Made by a program: the position numbers and the translations under genes. The notes under the pieces are model-generated. The model made no database searches, was not told the DNA's origin, and saw nothing but the letters and a program-made list of their open reading frames with translations. 32,851 nt of DNA from a virus. How positions within the stretch are numbered: the first letter of the stretch is position 1; the number at the start of each line of letters is the position of its first letter. Of the stretch, positions 1 through 32,842 are shown one piece after another. Where the stretch lies: positions 1 through 32,851 of the IMG/VR virus record IMGVR_UViG_3300033149_000574; one strand, given 5' to 3'.

Positions 1-105
1 ATTAGCAATATTATACAAGCGTTTAAATGCCCTAAGATGAGCCAAACAGAATTATTCTTACACATACCTAAGTCTTTTGTATGCGATTGGCAACATTGCA
101 ACTAA
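1..105 (+). CDS. 3' part of small membrane protein (second copy of end of window)
   Basis: This is the last 34 codons plus stop of the 59-residue protein that is complete at 32663-32842. It appears here only because the window repeats its own end. The frame opens at base 1 and stops at 103-105, with the TAA lying in the GCAACTAAC element of the following attC-like site. It should not be counted as a separate gene. Confidence 0.85.
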   Translation: MSNIIQAFKCPKMSQTELFLHIPKSFVCDWQHCN

Positions 106-114
106 CGGTTAGTA
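1..114. repeat. Terminal direct repeat, left copy
   Basis: These 114 bases are identical to 32738-32851. The simplest reading is that the sequence is a closed circle, or a circularly permuted phage genome, whose assembly overlaps itself. The repeat falls inside a gene and inside a recombination-like site, and joining the two ends completes both. A biological terminal repeat used in packaging is possible but less likely, because it cuts a coding sequence. Confidence 0.93.
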
Positions 115-160
115 TAAGAAACGTGGCTTTTCGCCATGTTATTTATACCGTGTTAGTTGC
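98..160 (+). other. attC-like recombination site (junction site B)
   Basis: The site runs from GCAACTAAC (98-106) to GTTAGTTGC (152-160), which are reverse complements. Between them, GG and ACC extend the outer stem. A second hairpin pairs ACGTGGC (121-127) with GCCATGT (133-139) over a TTTTC loop. Outer arms, unpaired spacer bases and a terminal G-TT core are the plan of an integron attC site. It separates the small membrane-protein unit (32621 to 106) from the methyltransferase unit. The core is not the perfect integron consensus RYYYAAC/GTTRRRY. Confidence 0.6.
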
Positions 161-186
161 AGTTTTAATAATTAAATAAATATAAA

Positions 187-1191
187 ATGAAAAATAAAAA
201 ACATAAATTCCCATACGAATGGACTTTAAAAGATGCGAACTTTACAAAAGATAAAGGGACAGTTTTTAGTTGCTTTGCCTGTGGTGGTGGCTCGACAATG
301 GGTTACAAATTAGCGGGGTTTAACGTGTTAGGGTGCAATGAGATTGACCCTAAAATGATTGAAGCCTACAAAGAAAACCATAACCCTAAATATGCTTATT
401 TAGAACCTATACAGACTTTTAAACTTAGAAAGGATTTGCCAAAAGATTTATACAATTTAGATATTTTAGACGGTTCTCCACCTTGCAGCTCTTTTAGTAT
501 GGCTGGAAATAGAGAAAAGGACTGGGGAAAGGAAAAAGTTTTTAGAGAAGGACAAGCTGAACAAGTTTTAGATACATTGTTTTTTGACTTTATAGATTTA
601 GCAAAAGAATTACAACCTAAAGTAGTAGTAGCTGAAAATGTAGCTGGTATGATGATGGGAACAGCGAAAGAATATGTAAAAAAGGTTTACACGGAGTTTA
701 AAAAAGCAGGTTATCAATTAAAAATTGAACCTTATTTATTAGATGCTTCAAAAATGGGAGTGCCACAAAGACGAAAAAGAGTGTTTTTTGTAGCGTTAAG
801 AAACGATTTAAGTGATAATTTTATGGAGCAAGTGGATATGTTCCAGGTTGCACCTAAATTAGAACTAAACTTTAATGAACCAGAAATAGCAGTTAAAACA
901 TTTGCAGAATTTGAAGATAAAAAAGAAACGATAAATTATAGCGAAAAAAGATTTGGGGATGTTATATTAAACTTAAATAGAGCGGCCAACACTATAACCA
1001 GTGGTGTTAGGTTTTGGTTAAATGATAAGCAGATATTAAAAAAGGTGTGTTATAATTTGATTGGAAGCTATCCAGTAGATTATAAATTTAATTCTGATAA
1101 TGTTTATATGATAGGGATGAGTGTACCACCTGTAATGACTGCACAAATAGCAACAGAAATTTATGAGCAATGGTTGGCTAATTGCAACTAA
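187..1191 (+). CDS. C5-cytosine DNA methyltransferase
   Basis: It transfers a methyl group from S-adenosylmethionine to carbon 5 of cytosine in DNA. The conserved order is visible: motif I FACGGGSTMGYKLAGF (about residues 30-45), the catalytic Pro-Cys in GSPPCSSF (Cys near 100), ENV (about 150), QRRKRVFFVAL (about 195-205), AANTITSG in the motif IX area (about 275), then a C-terminal motif X-like segment. At 334 residues it is normal length and intact. No restriction endonuclease lies beside it, so it is an orphan, probably protecting phage DNA from host restriction. The gene is the sole cargo of a unit bounded by GTTAGTTGC (152-160) and GCAACTAAC (1184-1192), and its TAA stop lies inside the right boundary. 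The short leader has no recognisable promoter. Target sequence cannot be read from the protein. Confidence 0.93.
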   Translation: MKNKKHKFPYEWTLKDANFTKDKGTVFSCFACGGGSTMGYKLAGFNVLGCNEIDPKMIEAYKENHNPKYAYLEPIQTFKLRKDLPKDLYNLDILDGSPPCSSFSMAGNREKDWGKEKVFREGQAEQVLDTLFFDFIDLAKELQPKVVVAENVAGMMMGTAKEYVKKVYTEFKKAGYQLKIEPYLLDASKMGVPQRRKRVFFVALRNDLSDNFMEQVDMFQVAPKLELNFNEPEIAVKTFAEFEDKKETINYSEKRFGDVILNLNRAANTITSGVRFWLNDKQILKKVCYNLIGSYPVDYKFNSDNVYMIGMSVPPVMTAQIATEIYEQWLANCN

Positions 1192-1255
1192 CGGTTTGGC
1201 TATGATTAGTCATTTGAGGAACGAAAATTATTAATTATAGGTGGTGTTACCCACC
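1184..1255 (+). other. attC-like recombination site (site C)
   Basis: It starts with GCAACTAAC (1184-1192), the reverse complement of the left edge of the methyltransferase unit. It ends with GTTACCCACC (1246-1255), the left edge of the next unit. Inside, CTATGATTA (1200-1208) pairs with TAATTATAG (1232-1240) with one G-T wobble, leaving a 23-base loop. The two ends do not match each other but each matches the far end of its own unit. That is expected for integron cassettes, where the site is rebuilt in the excised circle. Confidence 0.6.
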
Positions 1256-1271
1256 GTTAAACTTACAAAAT

Positions 1272-1499
1272 ATGACTTACGATATAGTAAATGTGCAATT
1301 AACACACCCATCATTTAGTTGGGGGAACGGCTTGTATGCTGTAATTGAAATAAAAGGAACTGAATTAAGAATGTGCCAAATAAATAAAGATGGTAAACCT
1401 TCGCTATTTGATGATGGTAGTTTTATGATTACTTGCACAGGAACAGGTAATAAAGAAGTTTACCCAACGGATTTAAAGCTCGAATATAATGGTGGGTAA
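1272..1499 (+). CDS. Small cassette protein, unknown function (75 aa)
   Basis: I do not recognise this family. It is a 75-residue soluble-looking protein with no signal peptide or membrane segment, alternating short hydrophobic stretches (GLYAVIEIK, ELRMCQI) and a Gly/Thr-rich end, suggesting a small beta-rich fold. It is the only gene in the unit bounded by GTTACCCACC (1246-1255) and GGTGGGTAAC (1491-1500). Its TAA stop (1497-1499) lies within the right boundary. The start is 17 bases after the left boundary, preceded by an A-rich stretch. It is real on the basis of frame, start context and its fit to the unit; function is open. Confidence 0.7.
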   Translation: MTYDIVNVQLTHPSFSWGNGLYAVIEIKGTELRMCQINKDGKPSLFDDGSFMITCTGTGNKEVYPTDLKLEYNGG

Positions 1500-1540
1500 C
1501 AATACGCTAAAAACCATTAAACGATTTAGTAATAGTTTAT
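1491..1540 (+). other. attC-like site, degenerate last site of the array (site D)
   Basis: It begins with GGTGGGTAAC, complementary to the left edge of the preceding unit at 1246-1255. CTAAA (1508-1512) can pair with TTTAG (1525-1529), and GTTTATA (1535-1541) could serve as the closing core. No matching AAC element is seen further right, so this looks like the end of the cassette run. The left arm is well supported and the right end is a guess. Confidence 0.4.
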
Positions 1541-14225: not shown

Positions 14226-15233
14226 ATGGACAAACGACCAATATACGACGTCTCAATAGATGCTGAGTATCAGCAAGGGGATAACGAACTAGGATGGGAT
14301 GAAACGGCTTTCACTTCAGACCCTGCTATTATGATTAAGGGCATGGCTTACAAGTCACAAGCTCCGAAACAAATATTTGCAGACAAAAAGAAGTATAGAG
14401 TAACAGCCCCTGCTATGATTCCAATGGATATATACAGGAGTGATGAAGATGGTGATTACGATGTAAGATTTACAGAGCAGACTATAGAGGACTTACATAA
14501 AAAGTTTATGTTAAACCTAGACAATAAGGATAAGTTTAACATGGAGCATGATGAGAGTGACAGAGTTCCTGCTTATATGCTAGAGTGTTGGTTGGTCGAC
14601 AATCCAAAACAAGATAAGGCTTATAGTACTTTTGGTTTAGAAGTTCCAAAGGGTACGTTAATGTTTACAGTACAATTCACAGATAAAGACTTTTACAATG
14701 AGATAGTACAAAACGAACAAATAGGATTATCTATTGAAGGGTTTTTAGGTCTATCTATAATCAAGGAACAATTAAACAAACATAAGAGTATGAAGTTACC
14801 AGATGGCAACTTTACAATTGACGGCAAAGCATATACTGTTTTAAATGGTGAGGTTGCAATAGCTGAAGAAGTAAAGGAAGAAGAAGAAGAAATGGCTGAA
14901 GAGGTTACTGAAGAAGAAGTTGAAGTGGAAGCTGAAGCGGAAGAAGACGTAAAAGAAGAGGTCGAAGAGGAAATGGCAGAAGTAGAAGTTGACGAAGAAG
15001 AAGTAGAAGTTGAAGCGGAGGTTAATCCTGAAGCAGATGCTGAAGCAATTCTAGCAATTGTTATGCCTGTTATTGATGAAAAGATTAATGCAGTACTAGA
15101 ACTTATTGCAGAGATTAGAAATGAATTAGTTGATTCTGCTGAAGTGCCGACAGAAGATACTGAAGTAAACATGAGCGCACAAAACAAAAACAAAGAAGGA
15201 TTTAGAAAATTAATCCAAACATTTAACAATTAA
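14226..15233 (+). CDS. Prohead protease (XkdF-like) fused to acidic scaffold
   Basis: The N-terminal part (about residues 30-185) resembles the XkdF/S78-type phage serine protease: VTAPAMIPMDIYR, a His in KFNMEHDESD (His-108), and a Ser in IGLSIEGFLGL (Ser-169) as likely catalytic residues. Next comes a very acidic Glu/Val/Ala repeat (about 215-285) that probably is disordered and acts as the scaffold during shell assembly. A helix (EAILAIVMPVIDEKINAVLE) and a basic end follow. It sits four bases before the major capsid gene, the usual order. The acidic stretch also leaves long false frames on the other strand. Confidence 0.82.
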   Translation: MDKRPIYDVSIDAEYQQGDNELGWDETAFTSDPAIMIKGMAYKSQAPKQIFADKKKYRVTAPAMIPMDIYRSDEDGDYDVRFTEQTIEDLHKKFMLNLDNKDKFNMEHDESDRVPAYMLECWLVDNPKQDKAYSTFGLEVPKGTLMFTVQFTDKDFYNEIVQNEQIGLSIEGFLGLSIIKEQLNKHKSMKLPDGNFTIDGKAYTVLNGEVAIAEEVKEEEEEMAEEVTEEEVEVEAEAEEDVKEEVEEEMAEVEVDEEEVEVEAEVNPEADAEAILAIVMPVIDEKINAVLELIAEIRNELVDSAEVPTEDTEVNMSAQNKNKEGFRKLIQTFNN

Positions 15234-29901: not shown

Positions 29902-29908
29902 TGGTTTG

Positions 29909-29951
29909 TGTAAATTTTCGTTTTAATGAAATTTACATTGTGTTAGGTGTA
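29909..29951 (+). other. Hairpin and left edge of isolated cassette unit (site H)
   Basis: TGTAAATTT (29909-29917) pairs with AAATTTACA (29929-29937). GTTAGGTGTA follows at 29942-29951. GTTAGGT is an exact GTTRRRY core, and TACACCTAAC at 30327-30336 is its complement. No AAC element is found to its left, so this is the entry edge of the first unit, either an insertion target or a partly lost site. Confidence 0.5.
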
Positions 29952-29967
29952 GTAATTAATAATAAAT

Positions 29968-30120
29968 ATGGAGTTTTTAGATATAATTAGAGTGTCAAGT
30001 GATAAATACTTAATAAGGTTTTGGAATTACCAAGGCGGTAAAAAAGAAATGATTGAAATAAGTTGCTCAAGATTTGAGTATGAAAAATATATAAAAAAAA
30101 TAGATAATGATACCAGATAG
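29968..30120 (+). CDS. Small cassette protein A, unknown (50 aa)
   Basis: The ATG lies 16 bases after the left edge of the unit. The product (50 aa) has strands at the start (MEFLDIIRVSSDKYLIRFW) and a basic helical end (FEYEKYIKKIDNDTR). It overlaps the following gene by 14 bases in another frame, so the two small proteins are co-translated. No family is known. Confidence 0.5.
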   Translation: MEFLDIIRVSSDKYLIRFWNYQGGKKEMIEISCSRFEYEKYIKKIDNDTR

Positions 30121-30322
30121 ATCAGAATTAAAAAACGGTAATATAGTAGAGGTTGATACTATTGAAATACAGATAAATAATAATGACCACAACAAATACC
30201 TTACTGCAACTATTGATTATGCTGAATATGACAATAATCAAGAATTAAGTGATGAAGACTATAACGAGTTAAATGAGTATGATGATTTAATTATAGATTT
30301 AATTGACCATTTAGAGTTATAG
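30107..30322 (+). CDS. Small acidic cassette protein B (71 aa)
   Basis: A very acidic 71-residue protein, Asn/Asp/Glu-rich, ending in DEDYNELNEYDDLIIDLIDH. It begins inside the gene for the basic protein A and ends five bases before the right edge TACACCTAAC of the unit. A basic small protein followed by an acidic one with overlapping frames is a toxin-antitoxin-like plan, but I recognise neither partner, and DNA mimicry or anti-defence action are also possible. Confidence 0.6.
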   Translation: MIPDRSELKNGNIVEVDTIEIQINNNDHNKYLTATIDYAEYDNNQELSDEDYNELNEYDDLIIDLIDHLEL

Positions 30323-30326
30323 AAAT

Positions 30327-30387
30327 TACACCTAACACCAAAACAAGAAGCGTTTTTTTAATGCTTTCTTGTTAACTGTTATCCACC
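30327..30387 (+). other. attC-like recombination site (site G)
   Basis: It starts with TACACCTAAC, where ACCTAAC is an exact RYYYAAC core. Inside, AACAAGAAGC (30342-30351) pairs with GCTTTCTTGTT (30363-30373) leaving one unpaired A/T position, the sort of extrahelical base that orients integron attC sites. It ends at GTTATCCACC (30378-30387). This is the closest match to a classical attC in the window. No complement of the closing core is found downstream. Confidence 0.65.
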
Positions 30388-31473: not shown

Positions 31474-31716
31474 ATGAATATAAGAGACGAAATAGAAGAT
31501 ATACTTTACGTAACTGACTTAAAACCTAGTGTAATTGAAAGGGTAACTGAAAAGCTTTTGAATTTACATCTTGTTATGCAACGTGATATGCTAAACGATA
31601 TGATAATGCAACAAGAGGAAATAGTAAGCAGTCCTATAAGGTTTAACGGTGTGCATATTGAAAACATAAAGAAGATATTTAAAAACAACGGTACAGAATA
31701 TCAATCACCTTTTTAA
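31474..31716 (+). CDS. Small helical protein, unknown (80 aa)
   Basis: The 80-residue product is helical (EIEDILYVTDLKPSVIERV, then LLNLHLVMQRDMLNDMIMQQ) and ends NNGTEYQSPF. The stop is four bases before the GCATAAC of the next attC-like site, so it probably is the cargo of the unit to the left of site F. A left edge could be GTTAATG (31453-31459), but it does not complement GCATAAC exactly, so cassette membership is unsure. Confidence 0.55.
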   Translation: MNIRDEIEDILYVTDLKPSVIERVTEKLLNLHLVMQRDMLNDMIMQQEEIVSSPIRFNGVHIENIKKIFKNNGTEYQSPF

Positions 31717-31720
31717 TGTT

Positions 31721-31786
31721 GCATAACGCTTGTGTATGCTCTGTATGGAGCAAAGCGGAATATGGAGTATAAACCTTGTTATAAGT
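31721..31786 (+). other. attC-like recombination site (site F)
   Basis: It runs from GCATAAC (31721-31727) to GTTATAAGT (31778-31786). The inside folds as CGCTT/AAGCG (31727-31731 with 31753-31757) with an inner GCTC/GAGC stem over a six-base loop and six unpaired bases on one side. It ends with a G-TT core that matches the right edge of the next unit (ACTTATAAT at 31993-32001). Confidence 0.5.
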
Positions 31787-31795
31787 ATTTTAATT

Positions 31796-31990
31796 ATGAA
31801 AACAGTATATTTTCAACCACACGATATAAATAAAAAGTTTTGTGAAATTGGTATGATTTCAGAAACTGACCCAGAATACATTTGGTACTTAGATGAACCA
31901 TGTAAAGTATTAATCAAAGACGTGAAAATAATAGACAAAGAAAGAGTAACCTACGACAAAAAGAATAGGTTGCATAGAGTAAAAAGCTAA
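31796..31990 (+). CDS. Small cassette protein, unknown (64 aa)
   Basis: An open frame reaches back to 31730, but that part lies inside the recombination-like site. The ATG at 31796 is nine bases after the core and A-rich before it, so the product is 64 residues. It is a mixed alpha/beta protein (TVYFQPHDINKKFCEIGMI; EYIWYLDEPCKVLIKDVKII) with two cysteines, no signal or membrane segment. It is the sole gene of its unit. No family is recognised. Confidence 0.6.
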   Translation: MKTVYFQPHDINKKFCEIGMISETDPEYIWYLDEPCKVLIKDVKIIDKERVTYDKKNRLHRVKS

Positions 31991-31992
31991 TT

Positions 31993-32049
31993 ACTTATAA
32001 TGGGTACAGCTAAAACACGCTTTATTGTGTTTTAGGTGCTGTTACCCTC
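31993..32049 (+). other. attC-like recombination site (site E), strongest hairpin
   Basis: ACTTATAAT (31993-32001) is the complement of the left edge GTTATAAGT of its unit, apart from the last base. Then GGGTACAGC and TAAAACAC (32002-32018) pair with GTGTTTTA, and GCTGTTACCC (32027-32047) across a short loop. Unpaired bases (an extra T, and GGT) lie on one strand only. The one-sided unpaired bases are the signature of attC strand choice. The site ends at GTTACCCTC (32041-32049). Confidence 0.65.
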
Positions 32050-32122
32050 TTTTATTTGTGCGCCTGAAACCCCTATAAACACTAGAAAAATGAAAATAAT
32101 TTAAAATTTCTTTGTATTTCGC

Positions 32123-32152
32123 TTGTATATACAATGTATTGTAGTACATTTA
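32123..32152 (+). promoter_or_regulatory. Promoter with palindromic operator inside a cassette unit
   Basis: TTG (32123-32125), a 19-base spacer and TACATTTA (32145-32152, one base off TAnnTTTG) form a promoter. A perfect 12-base palindrome, TTGTATATACAA (32123-32134), covers its upstream box, and TGTA-N6-TACA (32136-32149) covers the downstream one. Such symmetry suits a ribbon-helix-helix dimer, and one is encoded in the same unit (32462). The start of RNA near 32158 rules out a gene start at 32134 and supports 32179. Confidence 0.65.
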
Positions 32153-32178
32153 CAACAGAAACAACAACAATAAAGATT

Positions 32179-32451
32179 ATGACAACATTAGAACAAGCGA
32201 TAGAAAACTTCGATTACAGCTCATTATTTACTGATGAAAACAATGAAAAAATAGCAAAAGAAATAGAGATTGAAAATAAAGAAAGAGAGCAAAAAAAATA
32301 TGCTGAACAAATGAATAAATATTCAATGGAAATAAAAGATCATACAACTTTAAGAACTTGTAAAAGATGTCAAGGTACTGGAGAGATTAAGAGCTACAGA
32401 CATGTTGCTAATGGTGTTTGTTTTACTTGTGGTGGATATGGTAAAAAATAA
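32179..32451 (+). CDS. Cassette protein with DnaJ-type CxxCxGxG zinc motifs (90 aa)
   Basis: The frame extends to 32134, but the promoter places the true start at 32179. The 90-residue product has an acidic helical N-terminal part (EIEIENKEREQKKYAEQ) and two zinc half-sites near the end: CKRCQGTGE and CFTCGGYG, as in DnaJ-type zinc-finger units. It lies 10 bases before a ribbon-helix-helix gene in the same unit. Possibly the toxin or effector of a two-gene stability system, but zinc-binding adaptor roles are also possible. Confidence 0.65.
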   Translation: MTTLEQAIENFDYSSLFTDENNEKIAKEIEIENKEREQKKYAEQMNKYSMEIKDHTTLRTCKRCQGTGEIKSYRHVANGVCFTCGGYGKK

Positions 32452-32461
32452 AAACTAAACT

Positions 32462-32593
32462 ATGAAACAACCCTATCAAATAAGAATAGAACCAACAATG
32501 TTAGAGCAACTAAAAAAGGTTGCTAAAGAGAACGACACAAGCGTAAACCATGAAATAAGACAGGCTATCAAAAAGCGGTTGCAAGAAAAATAA
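32462..32593 (+). CDS. Ribbon-helix-helix (Arc/MetJ-like) protein (43 aa)
   Basis: The 43-residue product has a ribbon-helix-helix plan: beta strand QPYQIRIEPTM (about 3-13), helix LEQLKKVAKENDTS, and helix VNHEIRQAIKKRLQEK. These form dimers that bind palindromic DNA, often as antitoxins that repress their own promoter. It is the second gene of the unit, stops three bases before the right edge GAGGGTAAC, and the unit's promoter carries matching palindromes. A partner role with the zinc protein upstream is likely but not shown. Confidence 0.75.
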   Translation: MKQPYQIRIEPTMLEQLKKVAKENDTSVNHEIRQAIKKRLQEK

Positions 32594-32595
32594 TT

Positions 32596-32628
32596 GAGGG
32601 TAACGGTTTGAATATGGTGCGTTGCATC
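32596..32628 (+). other. attC-like site, short form (site A)
   Basis: It begins with GAGGGTAAC (32596-32604), the exact nine-base complement of GTTACCCTC (32041-32049), the left edge of the two-gene unit. It ends with GTTGCATC (32621-32628). Only 16 bases lie between, with no strong hairpin; AACG/GCGTT can pair at most. The site is much shorter than the others and is assigned by the matching edges. Confidence 0.55.
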
Positions 32629-32662
32629 ACAAAATTAAATAGATAAACTAAAACTTTGAATT

Positions 32663-32842
32663 ATGATAAAATACATTAAAGACAACATAAGCAATGCATT
32701 ATATTTTGTGTTAGTTGCTGTGTTTTTGTGGGTGTCAATTAGCAATATTATACAAGCGTTTAAATGCCCTAAGATGAGCCAAACAGAATTATTCTTACAC
32801 ATACCTAAGTCTTTTGTATGCGATTGGCAACATTGCAACTAA
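32663..32842 (+). CDS. Small single-pass membrane protein (59 aa)
   Basis: The 59-residue product has one membrane segment (ALYFVLVAVFLWVSI, about 12-26) and a C-terminal tail with three cysteines (QAFKCPKMSQTELFLHIPKS, then CDWQHC). It lies between GTTGCA (32621-32626) and TGCAAC (32834-32839), so it is the cargo of one unit, and its stop lies in GCAACTAAC. Complete here, it runs into the 114-base terminal repeat. I do not recognise the family. Confidence 0.7.
   Translation: MIKYIKDNISNALYFVLVAVFLWVSISNIIQAFKCPKMSQTELFLHIPKSFVCDWQHCN

Follow-up and report, generated by a model that had tools for sequence, protein, structure and literature searches.

A C5 DNA methyltransferase as probable cargo of an integron-type gene cassette in an integrase-less phage array

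Methyltransferase cassettes of phages have been published, including those of Polaribacter phage P12002L (Qi et al., 2023; PMC9892861). According to the parts of that paper considered here, phage attC sites recombine with IntI1, as does one of the two P12002L sites, and the P12002L CALIN holds two methyltransferases. The same parts treat arrays in Vibrio and Shewanella phages as pieces of host integrons, report that the bottom strands of the sites are the more active ones, and discuss orphan phage methyltransferases and restriction protection. They note divergent site directions and contain neither a unit polarity nor a comparison with phage P12002S. For the phages Freya and Danklef, the corresponding parts of PMC8776804 interpret the integrase as hinting at a possible temperate life style, with no mention of integrons or cassettes in that text.

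Here, we analyzed a stretch of 32,851 nt from an IMG/VR virus record (IMGVR_UViG_3300033149_000574), hereafter the window. It is a circular phage genome with a 114-bp terminal repeat and 32,737 bp of unique sequence, it encodes a terminase of the Terminase_3 family (Pfam), and its host probably belongs to Bacteroidota. We conclude with good confidence that positions 107-1192 form an integron-type gene cassette with an orphan C5 methyltransferase as its cargo, in an integrase-less (CALIN-like) phage array. We found that relatives share, gain and lose exactly the hairpin, the gene and the right arm, with junctions at AAC. The features of the array, with the basis of each assignment in brackets, are as follows.

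29902-30336, plus strand: unit D, with hairpin, GTTAGGTGT at 29942, ORF 30107-30322 and ACACCTAAC (arms, fold)
31573-31727, plus strand: possible unit X, from GTTATGCAAC to GTTGCATAAC, weak and doubtful (arm list)
31728-32000, plus strand: unit E, from GTTATAAGTA at 31778 to TACTTATAA(T) (by eye and fold; absent from the exact-arm list)
32001-32604, plus strand: unit F, with GTTACCCTC at 32041 and GAGGGTAAC at 32596-32604 (exact arms, fold)
32605-32737, plus strand: first part of unit A, with GTTAGTTGC at 32710 (aligned to L021 and L092)
1-106, plus strand: second part of unit A, past the origin, ending in GCAACTAAC at 98-106
107-1192, plus strand: unit B, the probable methyltransferase cassette of hairpin, left arm, gene and right arm (hairpin common to L161-L166 with other cargo)
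107-151, plus strand: attC-like hairpin of unit B, 5' of the gene (fold when rejoined with its own right arm)
152-160, plus strand: left arm GTTAGTTGC of unit B, putative R box (arm search)
187-1191, plus strand: C5 DNA methyltransferase ORF, 334 aa (Pfam, phrog)
1184-1192, plus strand: right arm GCAACTAAC of unit B, holding the stop codon (exact-arm list)
1193-1500, plus strand: unit C, with hairpin, left arm GTTACCCACC at 1246 and right arm GGTGGGTAAC (arms, fold)

The ORF at 187-1191 is a complete C5 methyltransferase, matching Pfam DNA_methylase (E 2e-42) and phrog_116 (E 2e-64). Both the family profile and the PC and ENV catalytic motifs are present. Its stop codon TAA (1189-1191) lies within GCAACTAAC at 1184-1192, which is the exact reverse complement of GTTAGTTGC at 152-160; the exact match between the two arms is 10 nt. 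The original prediction that a complete C5 methyltransferase fills one unit, with its stop in the right arm, was borne out by profiles, arms and the chain statistics given below. Neither Pfam nor PADLOC showed an endonuclease partner among the neighboring ORFs tested, several of which are small and without a family.

A scan for arms plus hairpin at a loose threshold gave equally many weak matches on either strand and many in shuffled sequence. We replaced it with a chain test, which counts linked GTT...AAC arm pairs in the circular genome and in 300 dinucleotide shuffles of it. Units F, A, B and C are linked as a four-unit chain across the origin, and none of the 300 shuffles reached even three. 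The circular genome has 18 arm pairs of 9 nt or longer, compared with a shuffle mean of 7.4 and a maximum of 16 (300 shuffles). Units D, E and X are looser, and D is isolated from the chain. Every unit carries complementary arms of its own (GTTxxx on the left, xxxAAC on the right), with AAT in place of AAC at the end of the right arm of E and of the stretch before D. The left arms differ by unit, being GTTACCCTC in F, GTTAGTTGC in A and B, GTTACCCACC in C, GTTAGGTGT in D and GTTATAAGTA in E. As for cargo, unit F holds an ORF at 32134-32451 and an Arc-like ORF at 32462-32593; the ORF of unit A begins at 32663, within the hairpin loop; and unit C encodes 75 aa at 1272-1499, with no Pfam match and with its stop inside the right arm GGTGGGTAAC. 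The left arm of unit X sits within ORF 31474-31716. An Rfam search of the window gave no match. Elsewhere in the window, a Glu/Val-rich repeat was observed at 14867-15054, inside ORF 14226-15233.

The edges of the units were defined by what is shared with other viruses. Unit A aligns over its whole length (239/239 bp) to L021 (96%) and L092 (92%), and the 200-bp flanks on each side do not align. The hairpin of unit B (107-151) recurs in six viral contigs (L161-L166), five of them distinct (L161 and L163 read alike), with different DNA before it and different genes after it (five distinct cargoes); in L165 and L166 it precedes DPPY-type methyltransferases. Since this hairpin travels with the gene in related DNA, the methyltransferase unit is 107-1192 and does not start at 152. 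Thus, of the edges first claimed for it (152-1192), the right one stands, and the left one gives way to a true start at about 107 that includes the hairpin.

Beyond the window, 19 of 84 pattern matches in viral contigs had own arms that match over 9 nt or more, whereas about 1.5 were expected from arms swapped between loci. The cassette pattern itself had 15 matches in viral loci, themselves retrieved with a looser version of that pattern. In viral contigs, members of the same hairpin families are found repeatedly with unlike cargo, and methyltransferase is nearly the sole recognizable function among 49 cargo ORFs behind such hairpins. Ten of these match methyltransferase families (7 N6_N4, 2 C5, 1 MT-A70), two of the ten deriving from contigs found through the unit-B hairpin. 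We also observed that, behind hairpins of the type ATGAATACAGAT (L042, L058, L068, L077, L081), unlike cargo frames are fused in frame to one short N-terminus encoded by the hairpin loop; the frames of L042 and L058 are alike, and those of L068, L077 and L081 are different. No gain or loss was seen at the window's own site, and no near relative covering the methyltransferase site was found. Searches with the terminase, NinG and the glycosyltransferase-like protein each led to a single related locus (L011 at 98%, L094 at 36%, L095 at 43%), and the contig of L011 stops short of the cassettes.

Precise gain or loss of single units was seen in Freya, Danklef and P12002L/P12002S, and is indicated by sharing for units A and B. 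We compared Freya isolates 1, 2, 5, 6, 8, 9 and 10 (7/10 isolates examined), which are cultured Polaribacter phages of the same host strain. They form a nested stack: Freya_2 equals Freya_1 plus 842 bp, Freya_5 adds 902 bp, and Freya_6 a further 472 bp. Freya_9 instead gains 2,891 bp and Freya_10 a further 307 bp, and Freya_8 is without the internal 902 bp. Some steps contain two or more ORFs and could each consist of several units. All junctions in the compared pairs are at AAC, and the newest DNA always adjoins the same anchor, ACCCCTATAACAACAATAAG, immediately before the integrase gene. The exact-arm chain of Freya_10 is only 2, the same as in shuffles. With nested units beside the integrase in one phage on one host, the Freya isolates (L106-L111, L172, L173) represent a natural experiment on cassette capture.

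In the cultured Polaribacter phages Danklef_1 and Danklef_5, an adenine methyltransferase lies in a 781-bp unit with TAAC on both edges, a unit that Danklef_2, 3 and 4 are without. The annotated integrase of the Danklef isolates (L167-L171) is only 132 bp long (10361-10492 of L167), so the enzyme may be broken, although the methyltransferase unit still varies among isolates. P12002L and P12002S are 99.7% identical over the 5,044 bp between their two arrays and hold different methyltransferase units, with identity breaking at AAC; in one array, the matches end at a shared anchor, AAC|AACGGATAAAAC. The same 68-bp sequence, beginning AACAACGGATAAAACAAG, follows both P12002L arrays (L104, minus strand, 37265 and 29239) and looks anchor-like. 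The proposal of a mobile methyltransferase cassette is supported by this whole-unit exchange in relatives together with the sharing of units A and B. The comparison of related phages proposed at the outset gave different methyltransferase units in P12002L/P12002S and the gain or loss of one such unit in Danklef, not at the window's own site.

Such modules could also be swapped by homologous recombination between the short repeated hairpins during co-infection, with no site-specific recombinase involved. This would suit the recurrence of hairpin families with different cargo, as well as the lack of an integrase in the window and in most cassette records. However, the isolate breakpoints share just a few bases ending in AAC, and homology is unlikely to act there because these stretches are too short. 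Moreover, adjacent units have unlike arms, and additions in Freya are invariably placed at a single anchor beside the integrase gene. As an account of the units as a whole we regard homologous recombination as improbable; between shared hairpins, it could move unit edges in some cases.

We examined the folding and polarity of the sites. Rejoined with its own right arm, the unit-B site folds at -16.7 kcal/mol (z -6.5; 0/200 shuffles). On the gene strand, the fold of each of the six window units tested is stronger than that of almost every shuffle, with z values, to which the arms of the rejoined sites contribute by construction, of -6.5 (B), -4.4 (C), -7.1 (F), -5.0 (D), -4.1 (E) and -2.5 (A). 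One of four isolate sites failed to fold on either strand, namely the Freya site with a guessed right arm (z +0.9). The gene strand folds at least as well as the other strand in 6/6 window units and in 2/3 isolate sites with known arms. In integrons, the bottom strand of the site is the more active one, and attC usually, though not absolutely, lies at the 3' end of the cassette gene. Here, by contrast, the hairpin travels with the downstream gene. In Bacteroidota chromosomal arrays (L154, L150), each gene is followed by a site running from TAAC-A(C/G)... to ...CAAAAC, or a close variant, ahead of G|TTA. Sites in the phages have nearly this sequence, but on the strand opposite to the phage genes. 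Their sense is thus the usual one and it is the phage gene that is inverted, which places the hairpin before the gene. The longest ATG frame starts within the hairpin in 19 of 49 cargo ORFs (the choice of frame was mechanical), and in unit A and L006/L007 the reading frame passes through the left arm.

The integrase of Freya (271 aa) scores best with the XerA model, at 146 bits and under that model's own cut-off of 220, and its best PDB match is the XerC-like (XerA-type) protein 4a8e (E 2e-27). An alignment of the Freya enzyme with the integron integrase 2a3v falls into two pieces, with about 44 more residues between them in IntI (94, from 171 to 266, compared with 50 in Freya, from 169 to 220). 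This extra region is a defining feature of IntI. We considered and rejected a classical IntI, as the integron-integrase model TIGR02249 gives 96 bits against a cut-off of 265 and the IntI-specific region is missing. The catalytic columns R, K, H, R, H and Y are invariant in five relatives of the enzyme, and relatives in viral contigs are 36-39% identical. Arrays lie directly upstream of the integrase in L112, L114 (L115 reads alike) and L116. These are all three distinct relatives with enough upstream sequence, L113 being left out as a contig that starts at the integrase gene. Their upstream chains are 5, 4 and 6, compared with a shuffle maximum of 2 and with 2, 1 and 1 downstream. No Freya-type integrase was found in the window or in P12002L, and a search of 43 cassette-bearing records revealed it in just one. 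On balance, we lean towards the view that Bacteroidota phages run an integron-like system of their own, distinct from IntI integrons. In it, a compact XerA-like integrase would have an attI-like anchor at the 5' end of its gene, and each cassette would carry its hairpin 5' of the cassette gene, often encoding the start codon and N-terminus. Units would be stacked and dropped among isolates on one host, and integrase-less phages such as that of the window would use the same cassettes in trans.

Recombinases of the broad family are common in Bacteroidota genomes (73/296 at E 1e-60), and 17 of 19 bacterial stretches examined with a related integrase show no array. The other observation in these stretches was that of armed chromosomal arrays beside a related recombinase in L154 (chain of 4) and L150 (chain of 3, a weak case, as a chain of 4 arose in one shuffle of another stretch). 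They lie on the other side of the recombinase gene than in phages, with genes in the usual integron direction. Their existence favors a third possibility, namely that the phage acquired its array as a fragment of a host integron, which is how Qi et al. treat their Vibrio and Shewanella cases. Yet the gene polarity relative to the site is reversed compared with these chromosomal arrays, and the scanned bacterial genomes gave no real match to the cassette pattern, against the 15 in viral loci. The eight matches in genome_contigs comprise seven of one conserved Alteromonadales sequence and one in a Bacteroidetes MAG (L100) without a hairpin. A host origin of this kind thus appears unlikely.

Phages commonly encode relatives of the methyltransferase, at 60-89% identity in viral contigs and at up to 68% among GenBank phages; a search of genome_contigs found none. 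That the gene is native to an ordinary phage neighborhood, its arms being terminators or chance repeats, agrees with 11 of 13 relatives examined, which lie outside any armed unit in ordinary gene order (L001 is 89% identical), but is very improbable in view of the chain statistics, the swapped-arm control and the unit-exact sharing of unit A and of hairpin 107-151 with other cargo. The enzyme itself is an ordinary orphan phage methyltransferase, whose likely benefit, by analogy with the orphan enzymes discussed by Qi et al., would be protection from host restriction.

For the cassette reading, we propose that the hairpin, folded from single-stranded DNA, would be engaged by a tyrosine recombinase, with strand exchange at G|TT as seen on the strand opposite to that of the gene. 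In the circle formed on excision, the right arm, the hairpin and the left arm would be joined again, and the complete site so restored could then insert at an attI-like anchor or at another attC-like site. The recombinase may act in trans, coming from the host or from a co-infecting phage that encodes a Freya-type XerA-like integrase. The methyltransferase is predicted to methylate phage DNA and protect it from some host restriction enzymes, and an exchange of units would change methylation specificity in one step. Since related viruses add and lose whole units, modification genes can be gained or dropped in one step; if true, this reading explains one-step changes of DNA modification in phages. 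The Freya and Danklef isolates, which carry zero to several units on the same host, make cassette capture by a phage recombinase testable now, along with whether captured methyltransferases alter restriction sensitivity.

Methyltransferase CALINs of phages were already known, and what differs here is the 5' hairpin, the non-IntI recombinase and the stacking in isolates. In the open-licence PMC literature, we found no report of the reversed polarity or of a gene start inside the site, nor of a XerA-like integrase with an anchor or of stacked Freya isolates. Compared with the orphan C5 methyltransferases of Flavobacterium phages, the window enzyme belongs to the same protein family (59-62% identity). 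Such orphan enzymes in the viral-contig relatives checked lie in no cassette except in L006/L007, whereas that of the window does. The P12002L CALIN is the same kind of phage array of arms and hairpins with methyltransferase cargo, and has the same 5'-hairpin anatomy, found here in the P12002L sequence; the methyltransferase of the window is a C5 enzyme. The system resembles the integron (IntI, attI, attC) in its anchor beside the integrase, stacking at that anchor, complementary R boxes, hairpin site and GTT at the crossover. Unlike the integron, the recombinase in relatives is XerA-like and without the IntI-specific region, the site lies 5' of the gene, whose start is often within the hairpin, and the genes point towards the integrase.
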